From Rhodospirillales bacterium (GTDB lineage Bacteria; Pseudomonadota; Alphaproteobacteria; ATCC43930; CGMCC-115725), in NCBI GenBank assembly GCA_028291405.1, contig JAQGID010000166.1, forward strand, positions 1 to 39,205: a DNA stretch of 39,205 nucleotides, written 5' to 3'. A program made the translations under genes and the position numbers. The notes under the pieces were generated by a model. The model was given only the letters and a program-made list of their open reading frames with translations. It had not been told where the DNA came from and ran no database searches. Shown piece by piece: positions 5,863 to 38,243 of this stretch (positions within the stretch are counted from its first letter, which is position 1; the number at the start of each line of letters is the position of its first letter).

Positions 5863-6585
5863 TTAGACAGTCGCGACCGGGGATGCGTCGACCCAGAGGT
5901 GCCAGAGCGCAATAACGCCCGGATCGTTCGCGGGCGGCGCCGTATGCGTATAGAAAAAGGACCGGCCGTGCCTAGATCGTGCGGCGTCGCATGTTCCGGA
6001 CGTAATGGCGATCGGGGCGTCTTGGACAGCATAGCTCGTGGCTTGCGCGGACTGCGCGAGATAGGGCTCGAGGCGGGTCGCGATCGTGGATTCGTCGCGG
6101 ACATAGGCGATCATAAAGGCCTCACGCCCACCCCAGCCATATTCCCCGTTGAGGAAGCGCCTGAGGCCCTTGCTACAATAGAGGTTCTCGCCCCGCGTGG
6201 CGTCTATGATTTTGGCCTCGGCGATCAGCGGGAATCGCAGCGCTCGAGCCGAGAGATGGATGGAAAGGTCGGGGCGTTTCTCCAAGTGCGAGCCATCGAA
6301 GCTCAAGCTCTCCTTGCCACGCACGACAGAGGCGACGAGCTGGCGCCAGACCTTGTCCTCCTCGATCATTCGGTTGAGGCGCGCTTCCAACAGTGCGGTG
6401 ACCTCCGCTTCGTCCCCGGTCGCCACCGTTGTCGGGGCGCTCGCGCGGATGTCCGTGAATGCCTGGGCAACGCCGCCAACAATGATGTGCAGGTAGACGT
6501 CGTCGATCGCCGCCAACGGCAGATCGAGACCACGGGTCAGTTCCGCGATTTGGTCCGGACGGGGCAAAAGCGCCGAGGAGCTCAT
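5863..6585 (-). CDS. Unknown 240-residue protein with PD-(D/E)XK nuclease-like motif; last gene of defence-like cassette
   Basis: I do not recognise this as a named family. It shows an acidic helical N-terminal half (residues 1-90), then a beta-rich core with RPD (D106) and, 17 residues on, EAK (E123, K125). That is the D-x(n)-ExK pattern of PD-(D/E)XK nucleases. A downstream helix-strand (GLRRFLNGEYGWGGREAFMIAYV) resembles what follows the catalytic core in that fold. The C-terminal 50 residues are not assignable. The ATG at 6585 is chosen because it overlaps the methyltransferase stop as ATGA, implying translational coupling. Paired with a DNA methyltransferase, a nuclease role is plausible but inferred from one motif. 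It could instead be a catalytically dead fold or an accessory specificity protein. Confidence 0.6.
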   Translation of the reverse strand: MSSSALLPRPDQIAELTRGLDLPLAAIDDVYLHIIVGGVAQAFTDIRASAPTTVATGDEAEVTALLEARLNRMIEEDKVWRQLVASVVRGKESLSFDGSHLEKRPDLSIHLSARALRFPLIAEAKIIDATRGENLYCSKGLRRFLNGEYGWGGREAFMIAYVRDESTIATRLEPYLAQSAQATSYAVQDAPIAITSGTCDAARSRHGRSFFYTHTAPPANDPGVIALWHLWVDASPVATV

Positions 6586-9583
6586 CCGCGGTTGAACCCT
6601 CTCAGGAAATCGAGACGCGACCAGATGATGTGCTGGGCCAGGAGGTGCGCCTGGGTCTCGCTCCAGTAGCGGCTCTGAGCCAAACGACCGATGAGGAGCG
6701 CGCCGCTGCCATCCTCCACCATCATCTCGGTCGCCGCGGTGGCGTCGGCGACGGCGAGCAGCGCCTCCCAATCCGCTCGGACGCGAACGTCGGGCGCATC
6801 TGCACCCGTCTGCAGCAAAAGACCCAACCAGGGCGATGTCGGACGGTTGGCGACCATGCGCACGCTGACCGGCATGTTGAAGCGCTTTGCCCAAGGCTCA
6901 AGTTCATCCTGAAGGAACGAGCAAAAATCCTCGGTGACCCTCGAGTCTGGCGGGGCCTGCGCCGCTATCTTGGTCTCGGCGAACGGTAGGTTGAAGGCAA
7001 GCGTATCCGAGATGATCTGCAGATCGGTCGGATCCAGGCCGTAAAGGTCCGCGACCCAGCGATCGACATCGTCCCAGGCCCCTTCGGACAGCCGGATCCC
7101 CTCGAAGAGCTGCAGAATTTCGTCCCGCTGGTCGGGCGTCAGCTTGCGAAAATCGGGCAAGGGGATGCGGTCGAGCGCGGCCTTTTCGATGACCTCTCGC
7201 TCGAACCCGAATTCGCCGCTTGTGATGAGCGCAAGCCACAGCGTGAACTTGCTGCCGAACACGAGCGCGAGATAGCGGGACAGAATGTCGGCGTGCTCGA
7301 AAGCGCTCGGGCAATAGCCGTAGAAGTTCTCGTTATAGGCGACGGGCCGATCGGCGACTCCGACACGAATTCGGCCGCGGTCTGCGGGCGGCGACTTGTG
7401 GACGATCGCGACCGACGCCTCGAACAGGCGCGGATCACGCGGATCGTGAATGCGCTCATACTGAAACGATTGGAGGCGGTCGGTATCGATCAGGACGTCG
7501 TTCAAAGATTCGACGGTGACGTCGGGCAGGCCGTGCAGATACCGCGCGTCCGCACCCGGTTCGCCATCGCCATACTTCCTGGTCCGGCTGCTCAGCCGAA
7601 GCTGCTGATAGCCCTGCCCTGACCCAGCCATACGGCCGCGCGAGGACACGCCGATCGCGTCACGCCAGAATGTCTCCAGGGTGGGAAATTCCTTGGTCCT
7701 GATTCGCTCGACGAGGCCGAGGTCCGATTTGGCTCCGCGGAACAGGATTTTGAGGATGTCGGGTGTCTCGACCATCTGCTGCGTCGCGATGATCTCGGCC
7801 GAATGCGCATCAATGCGCATGGTGCCTGACGCATTGAGCGAGGTTTCTAAGCGCGGGCTAATCAACCGGAACCCCGCGCCCGTCTCCGGTACGCGATTGG
7901 TCGCGATCAGCAGGCAGAAGGGGGCCGAGATTTCCGGCCAGACCTTGGTTTGGCGTAACTCGACGCCGTTGATCACCGAGGTCACGTCGAGCGCCTGGAA
8001 AAGCATCCGGCGCGCGTCGACCATTCCGTCGCCTTGCTGGAACAACACACGGGCATGGAGCGCGAAGGCGATCTGACCGCCGGGCTTGGCCCATTCCATT
8101 GCGCGCCACACAAACGGAAGATCGAGCCCTTGATTGGGAAGCGGCGGCGCGACCTTCGTGCCGGACCGTTCACTGGCGATGCGCGCCACTGTCGACAGGA
8201 CCAATGACCAGTCCGACAGCTTGGTCCCCGTCGACCATGGCGGGTTGCCGACGACCATGTCGTAGCGGCCGCGATGTTCGTCGCCGACCAATGGCCCCAG
8301 GCTGCCGAGCGCACAGCCGGGCTCCTTGTCCTCAGAGCCGATACGGTGGAGCACCTTGCCGCGAAGATCTTCGAAGCGGAGCTTGTCGACCGGTTGGGGT
8401 TCTGGATCGAGTTCGATCGAGATCAGGTAAAGCGCCAGGGCCGCGAACCGGAGCGCCTCCTCATTCACGTCAAAGCCGGTGATCTGATCGTAGAGGATCT
8501 CGCGCAGGCGTTGCGTATCCGGCCGCTTGCCGTCGGCCCGCCAGCGGGCGGCAACCAATTCGCGGAATGCCGTAAGCAAGAATACGCCTGCGCCGGCCGC
8601 CGGATCGAGAATGCGCGCTGCGGCGCTCGCGCCGTCGCGCTCCAGCGCGCGAAACGATGCGCGCACGAGCAGGTCAGCGATGGGCCGGGGGGTGTAAAAA
8701 CCGCCTTCCTGCCGCTGCTTCACCGGCGCATGGCTGCGCAGATAAAGCTCGTAGGCTTGGCTCAGCACGCCAACAGGGATGTGGGCGAAGTCGAGCCGAT
8801 CCCAGCGCTCGGCCCATCCCAGGAAGAGCTGGCCGCCCGGCGCGCGCATCATGATGTTGCCGAGAACGTGATAGGCGTCTGGCGGCAGGTCTTCAAAGAT
8901 GTTGCCGGACAAGGGCAGCAGATCGCCGTTGAATGTGTCGTCGAGCCAGGTGCATGCCGCGCGCGCATTGTCGGCATTGTCGAACAGGGCGGCGGCAAGT
9001 TCGGGCGTCGCCAGATTGTCTGGCAGGAGGTCGCGATCGCCCAGGAATCGGGCGAAGAGCGCGCGGCCCACCAGCGAGATCGCGTCGCCATGATCGAGTT
9101 CCAGACCGATCAGGCGATCGATTGCGCCGGTCAGGAGATGGAGAACCACGTTAGAGATCCAGCCCTGCTTGGTCCGCGCGGCGCGCGGCCGGCGGTTGGC
9201 CAGATGCGGGAACAGGTCCTTGATCGCCTCGCTCGACCCGTCGGTGGCGATGCGCGCCTGGGCGGGCGTCTTACGATCGAGCGCAATGGCGTAGACGTCG
9301 AGCCGACCGGGAGCGACGATGCCGAGATACGGCGCATCGCCAGGAGGCGCCGCAGCCGGTGGATTTGTCCGGTGCCGTCGATCTGGTTGGCGTCGACCAG
9401 GAAGACGAGCGGCGCGTCCTGCCATTCATAGACGGCGCCGACGACCCCCAGGATCGAGCCGCTGTCGCGGCGTGCGTTGGTCAGCGTGGCATAGGGAAGC
9501 AGCTCGGGGCCGTCGGCATCGAGCGCATGAAGCGCCTGCCGATCGGCGCCGAAGGGTTCGAGCCGGGCCAGCCAGTCAGTCAT
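6582..9583 (-). pseudogene. N6-adenine DNA methyltransferase with recognition-domain-like C-terminus (type IIG/PglX-like), frameshifted near 9340
   Basis: About 1000 residues if one frame change is repaired. The first ~81 codons run from the ATG at 9583 in one frame (TDWLARLEPFGADRQ...). The rest continues in the -1 frame from GDAPYLGIVAPGR near 9341, consistent with loss of one base by mutation or sequencing error. The catalytic core shows a GGFYTPRPIADLLV entry segment, SAM motif I DPAAGAG and motif IV NPPW, the signature of N6-adenine methylases. The C-terminal ~400 residues contain YNENFYGY and DRIPLPDF, typical of the target-recognition region of type IIG or PglX-like enzymes. No fused nuclease is evident in the readable N-terminus. 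An in-frame start at 9425 could give a 947-residue product keeping both motifs. It lies 27 bases after the HTH gene and overlaps the downstream nuclease-like gene. Confidence 0.85.
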
Positions 9584-9610
9584 GGCGGTGTCCGTGGGGC
9601 ATCGGCGTGC

Positions 9611-9898
9611 TCACGACCGCAAATCCAGGCTCGCTTGCCGGTCGCCGCCGAAATGGCCGCGACGGGTCGCGCCGCGCGGCTTTTTCGTCGGCGCGACCTT
9701 CGCGATCGCGCTGCGATAGTCCAGCCCGCGCGCCGCCATTTCGGCAAGGAGCACGGCAACAAGTGCGATGTGCTGCGGCAGTTCGCCCCGACTCGCATAG
9801 TTCGTGATCGAATTGGGGTTCATACCAATAAGTTCAGCAAAGCTGCGCACACTAAGCCCCGTGCGCTCAAGCTCTGCGAGGAATTCAGGGTAAGGCAC
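9611..9898 (-). CDS. Small HTH DNA-binding protein, first gene of the defence-like cassette
   Basis: This 95-residue protein is probably the transcriptional regulator of the cassette. Residues about 8-38 (ELERTGLSVRSFAELIGMNP followed by NSITNYASRGELP) form a helix-turn-helix of the XRE/phage-repressor kind. The C-terminal third is basic (KKPRGATRRGHFGG) and has no assigned domain. Translation would begin at a GTG (9896-9898). A weak ribosome site precedes it and no better in-frame start is visible. Its upstream region holds three nested inverted repeats overlapping a likely promoter, as expected for an autoregulator like the C proteins of restriction-modification systems. That regulatory role is inferred from position. 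Confidence 0.75.
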   Translation of the reverse strand: MPYPEFLAELERTGLSVRSFAELIGMNPNSITNYASRGELPQHIALVAVLLAEMAARGLDYRSAIAKVAPTKKPRGATRRGHFGGDRQASLDLRS

Positions 9899-9913: not shown

Positions 9914-9955
9914 AACACAGTGTTTGATGTGTCATAACACACAAAACGATGTGTG
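9914..9955. promoter_or_regulatory. Cluster of three inverted repeats, probable operator of the HTH regulator
   Basis: Three perfect inverted repeats of the same TGTGT/ACACA character lie in 42 bases. They are AACAC-A-GTGTT (9914-9924), TGTGT-CATA-ACACA (9928-9941) and CACACA-AAACGA-TGTGTG (9938-9955). They begin 16 bases upstream of the HTH start codon and cover the candidate -10 and part of the -35. This arrangement suggests cooperative repressor binding and autoregulation. The binding protein is inferred from position only. Confidence 0.55.
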
Positions 9956-10458: not shown

Positions 10459-11577
10459 TCAGGCGGTGCCCCAGACCTCCGCCGCCGTCTCGACGATCAG
10501 CGCGAGCTTGCGCTTCTCGTCGTCGACGGTGAGCGCGTTGCCCTTGATCGTGCTGGCGAAGCCGCATTGCGGGCTGAGCGCCAGCCGGTCGAGCGGCACG
10601 ATCTTCGCGGCTTCCTCGATCCGCCGCTTGAGCGCGTCCTTGTTCTCGAGCTGCGCCTTCTTGGTGGTGACGAGGCCCAGCACCGCGACCTTGTCGCCGC
10701 TGAGATAGCGCAGCGGCGCGAAGCTGCCGGCGCGCGGGCTGTCGTACTCGAGGAAGAACCCGTCGACCTCGATCTCGCCGAGCATGACCTCGGCGACCGG
10801 GTCGTAGCCGCCCTCGGCGACCCACGAGCTCTCGTGGTTGCCGCGGCAGAGGTGCATGCAGACGGTCATGTCCTTCGGCCGGTCGCGCAGCGCGTCGTTG
10901 AACAGCTTGGCGTAGATCCGCGGCAGCTTGTCGGGGTCCTCGCCGATCTTGCGGACGTTGTCGCGCAGGCTGGGGTCGCAGAGGAACGGCAGGTTGGTCT
11001 CGTCGATCTGCAGATAGCGGCAGCCGGCGGCGTAGAGATCGGCGATCTCCTCGCGATAGACGCGCGCGAGATCGGCGTAGAACGACTCGATCTCGGGATA
11101 GGCCTTGATGTCGATCGCGGCGCGGCCGCCGCGGAAATGAACGATCGTCGGCGACGGGATCGCCTGTTTCGCGGTGAGGCCGGCGCGCTCGGCGACCGGG
11201 CGCAGCGCGGCGAAATCGTCGACCGCGAGGCGCCGCGAGCGGCCGAGCTTGCCGACGACCTCGAAGCGCGGCGGCGCGAACTCGATCTCGCCGGCCTCGT
11301 TGTGGAATTTCGACGGCAGGCCGCCGGCGAGCGCGACGCCGTCGATCTTCTCGAGAAAGTCGAGGAACCAGTGGCGCCGGTGGAACTCGCCGTCGGTGCA
11401 GACCTTGAGCCCGGCCGCCTGCTGCAGGGCGACGGCATCGGCGACGCAGCGCGCCTCGATGTCCCACAGCTGCTGTGCCGAGATGGCGCCGCTCTCGCGC
11501 TCGCGCCGCGCCGCGTGGATCGCATCCGGGCGGAGCAGGCTGCCGACGACATCCGCTTTGAACGGCGGTATTGCCAT
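10459..11577 (-). CDS. MetE C-terminal-domain protein (core methionine synthase / YxjG-like)
   Basis: This 372-residue protein is one catalytic barrel of cobalamin-independent methionine synthase without the N-terminal barrel. All four zinc ligands of the family can be placed: H242 and C244 (CMHLC), E277 (FFLEYDS) and C338 (SPQCGF). The homocysteine-site zinc centre should therefore be intact. Full MetE is about 750 residues. Short forms such as YxjG and core-MetE proteins use methyl donors other than folylpolyglutamate or are uncharacterised. The ATG is preceded by GGGAGAG at a good distance. It follows the MBL hydrolase gene after 30 bases on the same strand, so the two are probably co-transcribed. 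The methyl donor and acceptor are not decided by sequence. Confidence 0.87.
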   Translation of the reverse strand: MAIPPFKADVVGSLLRPDAIHAARRERESGAISAQQLWDIEARCVADAVALQQAAGLKVCTDGEFHRRHWFLDFLEKIDGVALAGGLPSKFHNEAGEIEFAPPRFEVVGKLGRSRRLAVDDFAALRPVAERAGLTAKQAIPSPTIVHFRGGRAAIDIKAYPEIESFYADLARVYREEIADLYAAGCRYLQIDETNLPFLCDPSLRDNVRKIGEDPDKLPRIYAKLFNDALRDRPKDMTVCMHLCRGNHESSWVAEGGYDPVAEVMLGEIEVDGFFLEYDSPRAGSFAPLRYLSGDKVAVLGLVTTKKAQLENKDALKRRIEEAAKIVPLDRLALSPQCGFASTIKGNALTVDDEKRKLALIVETAAEVWGTA

Positions 11578-33841: not shown

Positions 33842-34723
33842 CTAATTCTTGCCGGCCGGCGTCTGCTGCAGCCGCCGCAGCACATCATCGAGCTGGTCCA
33901 GCGTGCGGTAATGGATGGTGAGCGAGCCGCCGCGGCCGCCGAAGCTCACGTCGACCTTGAGGCCGAGCTGCTCCGTCAGATCCCGCTCGAGCGCCGCGGT
34001 GTCGGCGTCCTTGGCCGGGGCGGTGGCCGGCTTGCGGGGCGCCTTGCCCGATTTGGCGAGGGACTCCGCCTGACGGACGTTGAGGCCGCGCTTGACGATC
34101 TCGCGGGCGAGACCGGTCGGGTCGGCGGCGTTGAGCAGGGCGCGGGCGTGGCCCGCGGTCAGCTCGCCGCTCTCGACGAGGCGCTTGACCGGCTCGGGCA
34201 GGCTGAGGAGCCGCATCATGTTGGCGACGTGGCTGCGGCTCTTGCCGACGGCCTGGGCGAGCGCCTCCTGGGTGTGGCTGAACTCCTCCATCAGGCGGCG
34301 GAAGCCGTCGGCTTCTTCGAGCGGCGTCAGGTCCTGGCGCTGGATATTCTCGACCAGCGCGATCTCGAGCGCGCTGCGGTCGTCGAGTTCCTTGACGACG
34401 ACCGGCACCTCGTGGAGCCGCGCCATCTGCGCCGCGCGCCAGCGCCGCTCGCCGGCGATGATCTCATAGGCGTTGGCATCGTCGGGATGGCGGCGCACCA
34501 GCAGCGGCTGCAGCACGCCCTTGTCGCGGATCGATTCCGAGAGCGTGTGCAGCGCCTCGTCGTCGAAGATGCGGCGCGGCTGGAAGCGGCCGGGGCGCAG
34601 CTGCTCGATCGGCACGCCGCGCGTCTGACGCTGCCGGTCGAAGCCGGATTTCTCCTCGCTCTCGTCGCCGAACAGCGCCGACAGCCCGCGCCCGAGGCCG
34701 CGCTTGCGTCCCTCCTCCGCCAT
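33842..34723 (-). CDS. parB: Chromosome partitioning protein ParB
   Basis: This 293-residue CTP-dependent DNA clamp loads at parS and partners ParA. The N-terminus RKRGLGRGLSALFGD is the ParA-interacting peptide. The CTP-binding domain has FQPR (48-51), GERRWRA (91-97) and ENIQRQDL (125-132). The helix-turn-helix covers about 150-172 (HTQEALAQAVGKSRSHVANMMRL), and a dimerisation domain ends the protein. The ATG at 34723 is preferred because GGGAGG stands five bases upstream; a GTG at 34771 overlapping the parA stop is an alternative. Two parS sites for it lie in this window. Confidence 0.97.
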   Translation of the reverse strand: MAEEGRKRGLGRGLSALFGDESEEKSGFDRQRQTRGVPIEQLRPGRFQPRRIFDDEALHTLSESIRDKGVLQPLLVRRHPDDANAYEIIAGERRWRAAQMARLHEVPVVVKELDDRSALEIALVENIQRQDLTPLEEADGFRRLMEEFSHTQEALAQAVGKSRSHVANMMRLLSLPEPVKRLVESGELTAGHARALLNAADPTGLAREIVKRGLNVRQAESLAKSGKAPRKPATAPAKDADTAALERDLTEQLGLKVDVSFGGRGGSLTIHYRTLDQLDDVLRRLQQTPAGKN

Positions 34724-34767
34724 TGCCGCCTCCCCCTCAACGTGCAATTTCGCCACGCGCCCCTTGC

Positions 34768-35593
<826 letters not shown>

Positions 35594-35619
<26 letters not shown>

Positions 35620-36229
35620 GGATCACCTGTTCCAATCGCAGGATGGACCCCGAGGGGTCGGAGAGGCTGGGGTGCAGCGTCGCGCGCATCTTCCACGCTT
35701 TAGCCGCTTGCGTCAATTCGTCTTGGGCTGTCTGACCCTTTAGGAATAGCAAGATGCTGTGGAGATTGATGAAATTCGACGCTAGATCTAGTAGTCTTTC
35801 GACCGGCGCGAGGGCACGCGCGGTGATCACATCGGCGGCGAATACCGGCAGCTTCTCGGCGCGTTGGGGATGCAGCATCACGGTGGTCCCGGTCACCCGC
35901 GCCGCCTCGCGCATGAAAGCGACCTTGCGCTGGTCGGATTCGACGAGATGCACCTCGGGGACGCCCATGATGGCGAGGATCAGACCGGGAAGGCCGGCGC
36001 CGCTGCCGAAATCGATGAGGCGCCGCGCCGTCGGCGGGATCATCGGAAAGAGCTGCGCCGAATCGAGGATGTGACGGCGCCAGACGTCGCCGATCGTATT
36101 GGGACCGACGAGGTTGATCCGGCGGTTCCAGGACTTCAGCAGCGCGACATAGGTTTCGAGCCGCGCGATTGTTTCACGTGAAACACCGGTCTGCGCCTGC
36201 AGCTGGCCCGGCGTCAGCGGCGGCAGCAT
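35594..36229 (-). CDS. rsmG: 16S rRNA (guanine-N7) methyltransferase RsmG
   Basis: A 211-residue SAM-dependent enzyme that methylates G527 of 16S rRNA. Motif I is LIDFGSGAGLPGLILAI. The N-terminal VSRETIARLETYVALLKSWNRRINLVGPNT is standard, and codons 15-20 (GVSRET) contain a perfect parS site. RAEKLPVFAADVITARALAPVERLL matches the mid-domain. It begins on the base next to the mnmG stop and overlaps parA at its end. Loss of this gene gives low-level streptomycin resistance in other bacteria; nothing suggests loss here. Confidence 0.96.
36170..36185. promoter_or_regulatory. parS site inside rsmG
   Basis: TGTTTCACGTGAAACA is a perfect 16-base palindrome identical to the consensus ParB-binding site. 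It lies in codons 15-20 of rsmG. ParB loads here to build the partition complex. A second copy is at 38257-38272, 2.1 kb away. Confidence 0.95.
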
Positions 36230-38104
<1,875 letters not shown>

Positions 38105-38161
38105 GGCGCGCACTCTATGGGCGGCGCCGTTCCCTGTCAAAAGAAGCGGCAGCTCCTTCAT

Positions 38162-38243
38162 CGTCATTGCGAGGAACGAGGTGACGAAGCAATCCAGCCC
38201 GGTGCCGGCGTTCTTGATTTGCTTCGCTGCGCTCGCAATGACG
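38162..38243. repeat. Dispersed palindromic repeat between mnmG and mnmE
   Basis: The left arm, starting CGTCATTGCGAGGAACGAG and continuing GACGAAGCAATCC, pairs with GATTTGCTTCGCTGCGCTCGCAATGACG (38216-38243) around a 20-base centre, with a few mismatches. This CGTCATTGCGAG...CTCGCAATGACG unit is a common intergenic repeat in many bacterial genomes. It lies just upstream of mnmG, close to parS. Confidence 0.8.

Follow-up and report, generated by a model that had tools for sequence, protein, structure and literature searches.

What kind of system is encoded where the gene of a large DNA methylase runs directly into that of a small nuclease-like protein, and the partner genes of the established restriction and defence systems do not recur beside the two? 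The question is raised by a stretch of 39,205 nucleotides from a Rhodospirillales bacterium (contig JAQGID010000166.1; the whole stretch is called the window below), in which a reading made from the letters alone (the sequence-only reading) had noticed three adjacent minus-strand genes and proposed a cassette of a helix-turn-helix (HTH) regulator, an N6-adenine methylase and a separate PD-(D/E)XK-like protein. We found that the methylase and nuclease genes are constant companions, and consider it reasonably probable that they form a split type IIG-like restriction-modification system: specificity would come from the methylase chain, and the nuclease would act in trans.

The open reading frames (ORFs) of the HTH protein (95 amino acids (aa), 9898-9611, starting with GTG) and of the 240-residue protein (6585-5863, with D106 and E123-A-K125) are exactly as had been read, and the coupling of the nuclease to the methylase by ATGA, shared by the stop of the one and the start of the other, was confirmed at 6585-6582. 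The methylase of about 1000 residues was recovered in part: the DPAAGAG and NPPW motifs and the Pfam matches N6_Mtase (1.2e-18, above the cut-off) and Eco57I (5.4e-8) are present, but the gene is not one open frame. The features of the cassette, all on the minus strand, are as follows.

5863-6585: gene of the PD-(D/E)XK-like nuclease, 240 aa (ORF, AlphaFold2 model, Foldseek/VIA, conservation)
Within 5863-6585: nuclease residues of note, E59, P105-D106 and E123-x-K125 (87-sequence conservation)
6582-9425: main open frame of the methylase, 947 aa, with connector, gamma-class N6-adenine methylase (DPAAGAG, NPPW), target-recognition and C-terminal domains (Pfam N6_Mtase; 81% identity to the relative L009)
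9329-9583: N-terminal part of the methylase, about 84 residues, in another frame (hidden Markov model positions 1-85)
9332-9351: frame break, where the window is 10 bp short between 9342 and 9341 (DNA alignment with five relatives)
9611-9898: XRE-like HTH regulator, 95 aa, an exchangeable accessory (ORF; XRE-annotated homologues in the loci L003 and L004)
9916-9930: operator-like inverted repeat, proximal (ACA-N(6-9)-TGTG pattern)
9938-9952: operator-like inverted repeat, distal, 22 bp from the proximal copy (same pattern)

Pairing of the two genes and exchange of the regulator

Scanning the GTDB genome collection with the nuclease returned 105 relatives, the best 80 of which were used. The resulting set of 87 nuclease sequences represents 86 distinct loci (L007 and L032 being the same locus), including the window, one viral contig and four of five plasmid records; the record H2, with the same length and position as H1, was left out. 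Although these loci were fetched by the nuclease alone, a methylase of the same family lies directly upstream on the same strand in 86 of 86, with only the last 94 methylase positions left in L033. After dropping six loci cut by contig ends (L010, L031, L034, L045, L046 and L056) and eight with a broken methylase, the gap between the genes could be measured in 72 loci; it ranges from -43 to +13 in all of them and is a 4-bp overlap in 49. In the reverse direction, the methylase profile matched at E<=1e-60 in six of the 385 genomes of the class and in one more among 398 genomes of the phylum, and a nuclease homologue adjoins the methylase in all seven; five of these come from a second, remote clade, where the nuclease profile gives E-values of 6e-14 to 5e-11 (database size set to 1000). 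Similarly, the plasmid search with the methylase at E<=1e-60 returned exactly the five records found with the nuclease. At most two candidates were scored per genome in the methylase searches, so that methylases without a nuclease could have been missed there. The pairing exceeds chance. The remote clade of the two-gene pair comprises L091-L094, L096 and the plasmid hits H11 and H12, and on two Agrobacterium plasmids its pair stands beside an N-6 DNA methylase.

The system is patchy, since nuclease relatives occur in only two of 43 genomes of the order and the same two of 385 genomes of the class, one of them being the window's own. They were found in five of 72,556 plasmid records and, among viral contigs, in one of 18 stretches that matched a pattern, while the phage records searched with the nuclease gave no match. 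By the labels of their contigs, the carriers of the pair are Proteobacteria (several classes), Acidobacteria, Verrucomicrobia, Planctomycetes, Gemmatimonadetes, Chloroflexi and Binatia, and many of them are metagenome-assembled genomes (MAGs).

Regulators apart, every other gene family near the pair is limited to seven loci or fewer, and the regulator itself is not fixed. Among the 76 loci in which the methylase start is complete and upstream sequence of 700 bp or more is available, the upstream regulator is of the XRE type in 22, LexA in 14 and MerR-like in 11, and none of these in 29, as judged with three profiles built from members of the same locus set; 'MerR-like' is a weak label, MerR_1 matching below its cut-off in one of three members scanned and nothing matching in the other two. 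The HTH gene is therefore an exchangeable accessory and no core part. Accordingly, the three-gene cassette of the sequence-only reading shrinks to a pair, and of the two tests on which that reading had staked itself, a nuclease fold in the small protein and co-occurrence of all three families, the first holds and the second holds for methylase and nuclease but not for the HTH gene.

The window's HTH protein shows weak Pfam matches (HTH_35 and HTH_31, below their cut-offs) and has homologues annotated as XRE family in L003 and L004. All 22 XRE loci have the pattern ACA-N(6-9)-TGTG in the 160 bp that precede the XRE gene, and 18 of them have two or more non-overlapping repeats, compared with means of 0.79 and 0.02 (maxima 5 and 1) in shuffled controls; the pattern was chosen after inspection, and the XRE loci are related to each other. 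The repeat spacing includes 22 bp in 17 of these 18 loci; the window's value is 24 or 22, according to the choice between two overlapping matches. An overlapping palindrome at 9928-9941 is the sole match to its own pattern within the window. As for the LexA-type regulators, Pfam LexA_DNA_bind and Peptidase_S24 were found in the three scanned, and an Ala-Gly pair, a Ser and a Lys, which we take to be the self-cleavage residues, are invariant in 13 of 13 aligned. Such a LexA with an S24 peptidase heads the operon at L075:6307-6951, at L057:6106-6723 and at 12 other loci, the end of its gene overlapping the methylase start by 4 bp or 1 bp in several.

The nuclease and methylase chains

The AlphaFold2 model of the 240-aa protein, based on 67 sequences, has a predicted local distance difference test score (pLDDT) of 95.4. 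It runs from a helix (59-76) opened by E59 through a strand (107-111) after D106 and a strand (120-127) holding E123 and K125 to a helix (133-145) and a further strand (155-162), and the order of these modelled elements is that of the PD-(D/E)XK fold, with the acidic residues and the (D/E)XK motif on adjacent strands. These residues are also conserved: P105, E123, K125, Y136, G140, R143, F144, G147, Y149, W151, H206, R208, H229 and W231 are invariant in all 87 nucleases, D106 is found in 86 and E59 in 84. Because the scan patterns spanned the PD (P105/D106) and RFxxGxYxW stretches, conservation in those columns is biased; the columns E59, E123, K125, H206, R208, H229 and W231 lie outside the patterns and are unbiased. 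Based on the order of the fold and on these residues, the protein is very probably a PD-(D/E)XK nuclease, as had been supposed. Among solved structures, the type IIG enzyme DrdV takes Foldseek ranks 1-4 (best E 5.2e-3, probability 0.97, template modelling score 0.28), and VIA-align pairs the model with McrBC (Z 6.2, 128 residues aligned at 4.0 Å), NucC (5.7), SwaI (5.5) and DrdV (5.2, 118 residues at 3.4 Å), with NgoMIV and EcoRI also among its rows.

Several results weigh against this assignment. Foldseek gives nothing at E<=0.001; the VIA-align Z-scores are 5-6 with none at or above 8, and unrelated folds are among the rows (human Rep15 at rank 2); a profile of 67 nuclease rows searched against the PDB returned chance-level matches only, mostly to HSP90; and hhalign found no profile similarity between the nuclease and the N-terminal domain of the methylase, so that the sequences give no support to one domain having simply been duplicated. 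The window's nuclease sequence by itself matched nothing in the PDB, Pfam, NCBIfam, PADLOC or PHROGs. It is a 240-aa protein without a helicase motor, and no modified-base reader domain was detected by Pfam in four nucleases of the family and two of the remote clade, which gave one sub-threshold TfoX_C match among them.

The methylase is of the gamma class of N6-adenine methylases, having the S-adenosylmethionine (AdoMet)-binding motif and an NPPW motif (N450-P-P-W453 in 72 of 72 rows) in an N6_Mtase fold. The intact methylase of the relative L009, 81% identical to the window's main frame over 919 residues, gave a model (pLDDT 87.1) whose best solved matches include CamA (Z 30.1), BpuSI, MmeI, BrxX/PglX (E. 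coli BrxX, Z 27.1 over 607 residues) and DrdV, which aligns with it from residue 22 to 851. The domain borders read off these alignments are approximate: a connector at about 145-290, the methylase domain at about 291-600, a target-recognition domain at about 600-850 and then a C-terminal domain. PADLOC, suggested earlier as a check, has no model of the nuclease, and the methylase reaches no more than generic type IIG scores there, 75 to 87 bits.

In the L009 model, the element order of the first 140 residues fits a degenerate PD-(D/E)XK domain, so that the N-terminal domain of the methylase is likely a dead nuclease-like domain. [DE]xK is present on the strand where a DrdV-like order would place it in only seven of 72 rows, in one of them as ExK, and there is no conserved (D/E)xK in this domain. 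Two points speak against a pseudo-nuclease: the assignment rests on the element order and on the DrdV alignment from model residue 22, and [DE]xK does occur somewhere in the first 145 residues in 48 of 72 rows, often as DRK near residue 107, in the window too, though it is not conserved across the family.

A further difficulty lies in the window itself, where the methylase frame is broken. Profile positions 1-85 lie at 9583-9329 and positions 84-1000 at 9344-6594, in two different frames, and the DNA alignment shows that the window lacks, between 9342 and 9341, 10 bp present in all five aligned relatives (with methylases 68-82% identical to the window's); the 10-mer has a copy right beside this point. 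The broken stretch has a single full copy in the genome (elsewhere there is a 27-bp partial match), so that the break may be real or an assembly error. Because of the broken frame, the window's own copy is probably impaired. The methylase is broken in eight loci (the window, L005, L030, L032, L033, L049, L050 and L055), five of which (the window, L032, L033, L050 and L055) keep an intact-looking nuclease ORF; L032, L033 and L055 are labelled MAG. Nuclease matches fall into two pieces in L005, L030, L045 and L049.

One alternative concerns this copy only: it would be a decaying remnant, in which the break has removed the N-terminal domain of the methylase and with it restriction, whatever the intact family does. 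We give it nearly, though not quite, an even chance. The 10 bp are missing relative to all five relatives, and the relative G015/L032 likewise has a broken methylase frame; on the other hand, what is left includes an intact nuclease and a 947-aa frame in which every methylase motif is present, and an assembly error could account for the break. A remnant here is in any case compatible with a split type IIG-like system in the family.

Specificity and relation to known restriction systems

If the nuclease read DNA itself, it should change along with the recognition domain of the methylase. A first comparison, using whole-region identities of the nuclease and the methylase regions, gave correlations of 0.80-0.89 throughout. 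Partial Mantel tests were made of 13 methylase segments in two clades of 37 and 15 loci (the remaining 20 of 72 lie outside both), 26 tests in all and uncorrected. For the segments 601-660 and 661-720, nuclease distance gave r of -0.06 and -0.22 (37 loci) and -0.15 and -0.05 (15 loci), compared with 0.23 and 0.42 (37 loci) and 0.50 and 0.32 (15 loci) for the segments 71-145 and 146-215. Identity profiles computed in windows along 12 chosen locus pairs show the same in L079/L075, where identity drops as low as 40% in recognition windows and is 80-96% throughout the nuclease windows. These data have their counterweights. Positive r is also seen outside the N-terminal region, at 291-390 (0.41, 0.36), 391-500 (0.37, 0.13) and 861-935 (0.39, 0.10); segment 501-600, outside the recognition region, is flat as well (-0.01, -0.05); and in the pair L070/L058 the recognition region and the nuclease diverge together. 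Since other segments are positive and 501-600 is flat, co-variation does not settle the place of docking. On balance, nuclease divergence appears not to follow the target-recognition region, which points indirectly to specificity coming from the methylase chain. All in all, this would agree with the principle of type IIG enzymes, as put in PMC4081073, that a single specificity module serves both activities.

We would thus picture the system as follows. The methylase chain would recognise a DNA sequence through its own target-recognition domain and methylate adenine there, using AdoMet. The small PD-(D/E)XK protein would be a nuclease subunit docking on the methylase chain, perhaps on its N-terminal or connector region, and would cut unmethylated invading DNA near the recognition site of the methylase. 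There is no helicase, hence ATP should not be required. The swappable upstream regulator (XRE in the window, LexA or MerR-like elsewhere) would set expression, and the expected outcome would be anti-phage activity.

The main competitor for the family as a whole is an orthodox type II system, with a nuclease that finds its own recognition sequence unaided, a methylase whose sole role is host protection and an XRE controller protein that sets the timing of expression, as in PvuII- or AhdI-type operons, AhdI having a controller-type HTH. The separate restriction and methylase genes would suit it, as would the upstream XRE-like gene, confined to 22 of 76 loci, with its tandem operator-like repeats in all 22, the nuclease length of 240 aa, which is usual for a type II nuclease, the appearance of SwaI, NgoMIV and EcoRI among the VIA-align rows and the joint divergence in L070/L058. 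However, nuclease distance does not track the recognition region over the two clades, the nuclease of L079/L075 remaining similar where the recognition windows do not; and the methylase is a 1000-residue type IIG-like chain. In addition, the five of eight broken-methylase loci that keep an intact-looking nuclease fit a nuclease that needs its methylase, as loss of the methylase should not be tolerated beside an autonomous restriction enzyme, with the caveat that frame errors are common in MAGs, the label of three of the five. We regard an orthodox type II system as unlikely.

A PglX/BREX-like or type IV-like system guided by methylation is highly improbable; in it, self DNA would be marked by the methylase, and the nuclease would answer foreign or wrongly marked DNA in some other way, perhaps as an abortive effector. 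In its favour, the L009 model can be aligned with BrxX, the weaker PADLOC matches of the methylase include PglX models, and the LexA gene of 14 of the 76 loci hints at a connection with DNA damage. Against it, no further gene of BREX (bacteriophage exclusion) recurs beside the pair or occurs among the ten window neighbours, and the six nucleases scanned with Pfam have no modified-base reader domain.

Comparison with the known systems places the pair close to type IIG/IIL enzymes such as DrdV, MmeI and BpuSI, which have, like the methylase here, a gamma-class methylase, a connector and a C-terminal target-recognition domain in one chain, DrdV being both the best solved match of the nuclease and alignable with the methylase model. 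It differs from them in that the conserved nuclease motif is on a separate 240-aa protein, the nuclease gene being separate in all 86 loci, and that the N-terminal domain of the chain lacks a conserved (D/E)xK, so that active nuclease and methylase are not in one chain. Type I systems (HsdR/HsdM/HsdS) likewise have a separate nuclease subunit and an HsdM-class methylase, but the nuclease here is without the helicase motor of HsdR, no separate HsdS recurs, and the recognition domain is in the methylase chain. The methylase fold is similar to that of PglX/BrxX of BREX; however, the NCBIfam PglX models score only 17-30 bits against cut-offs of 400-900, brxC and pglZ do not recur beside the pair (there is one BrxC-type match among 76 more distant genes), and the constant partner here is a nuclease. 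None of drmA, drmB and drmC, which in DISARM (defence island system associated with restriction-modification) stand beside the methylase, recurs or is matched among the ten window neighbours, and the pair is not the MAD2 methylase with further mad genes of MADS (methylation-associated defence system), the MAD2 model giving 42.7 bits against a cut-off of 720. Hence the earlier statement that BREX, DISARM and type I partners are missing near the pair and among these neighbours stands.

Two further published arrangements are also close. In type IIH, as excerpted from PMC4081073, AhdI combines a gamma-class methylase with a separate restriction endonuclease, as here, but M.AhdI needs a separate S subunit; in our pair, recognition and methylation are in one chain and no further gene recurs. 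The nearest published idea, judging by the excerpts of PMC4389544, is the possible split type IIG pair HVO_A0006/HVO_A0237 proposed in Haloferax volcanii, with the nuclease on its own chain; the distance between these two is 231 genes, and the nuclease is a fragment with homology to a type IIG N-terminus, in contrast to the dedicated, adjacent and widely conserved nuclease here, whose methylase chain keeps its own N-terminal domain. No description of the methylase-nuclease pair was found in the literature searched, which excludes most subscription journals and all bioRxiv preprints and does not extend to REBASE. The pair looks like an apparently undescribed two-part variant of the type IIG class of restriction enzymes.

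More tentatively, and with less confidence than we have in the split system as such, the pair could be a natural ATP-independent form between type I and type IIG, in which a dead nuclease-like N-terminal domain docks a dedicated nuclease, targets change without a change of the nuclease, and a LexA branch is self-cleaving and DNA-damage-inducible. If the mechanism holds, nature would provide a relative of the transition from type I to type IIG whose engineering, according to the excerpts of PMC6158711, was attempted by fusion of HsdM with the nuclease domain of HsdR, and the pair would be a restriction enzyme that a change in a single domain of one subunit could re-target. The LexA-headed branch allows a connection of restriction with the SOS response to be tested directly, and since Pfam, NCBIfam and PADLOC contain no model of the nuclease, a profile of it would let annotation pipelines recognise these loci.

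Insertion site and neighbouring genes

The sequence-only reading had also taken the cassette to be inserted between ordinary operons, and this is supported by empty sites in three relatives (G042, G020 and G014), where oppC and a metallo-beta-lactamase-like gene are 80-1025 bp apart and the 20 kb searched from each gave no match to the methylase, the nuclease or a MetE-like gene. In the window, all three of these genes lie between oppC (assigned by Pfam OppC_N), upstream, and the metallo-beta-lactamase-like gene, downstream. The GC content of the cassette is 64.3%, compared with 66.3% and 68.5% in its flanks; the window has no tRNA, and its Rfam scan gave no match. The MetE-like gene (Meth_synt_2, 10459-11577), which shares the insert, is one of nine matches at E<=1e-60 in the genome, itself included. 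At two of the three empty sites, oppC and the lactamase-like gene are separated by about 1 kb of other sequence (L099:9080-10018 and L101:9325-10350, the latter with an ORF that reads like a LysR regulator), so that this junction may be a site of repeated insertion.

Several loci have defence genes nearby (AbiE, DarTG, cyclase, Gabija, Ssp), the Ssp and Gabija profiles matching genes in the wider surroundings. Against a defensive neighbourhood, PADLOC defence families are as frequent among 76 far as among 76 near neighbours, in subsets of 197 near and 152 far genes from 35 loci, of which 140 each were drawn at random; the comparison kept L003-L053, some regulators, long genes and others being dropped by hand. 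As the far set lies in the same loci and is no neutral background, we claim no enrichment in defence islands. At the Rhizobiaceae plasmid loci L003 and L004, the copies stand among an AbiE-type pair and restriction endonuclease, SIR2 and DarT-like genes. The ten neighbouring window genes have no PADLOC match except the gene at 21-1595, which matches the mad3/mad8 profiles and is an oligopeptide ABC transporter ATPase by Pfam. Near the right end of the window (33842-38167), ParB, ParA and MnmG/GidA genes lie together, a grouping that is usual near the chromosome origin.

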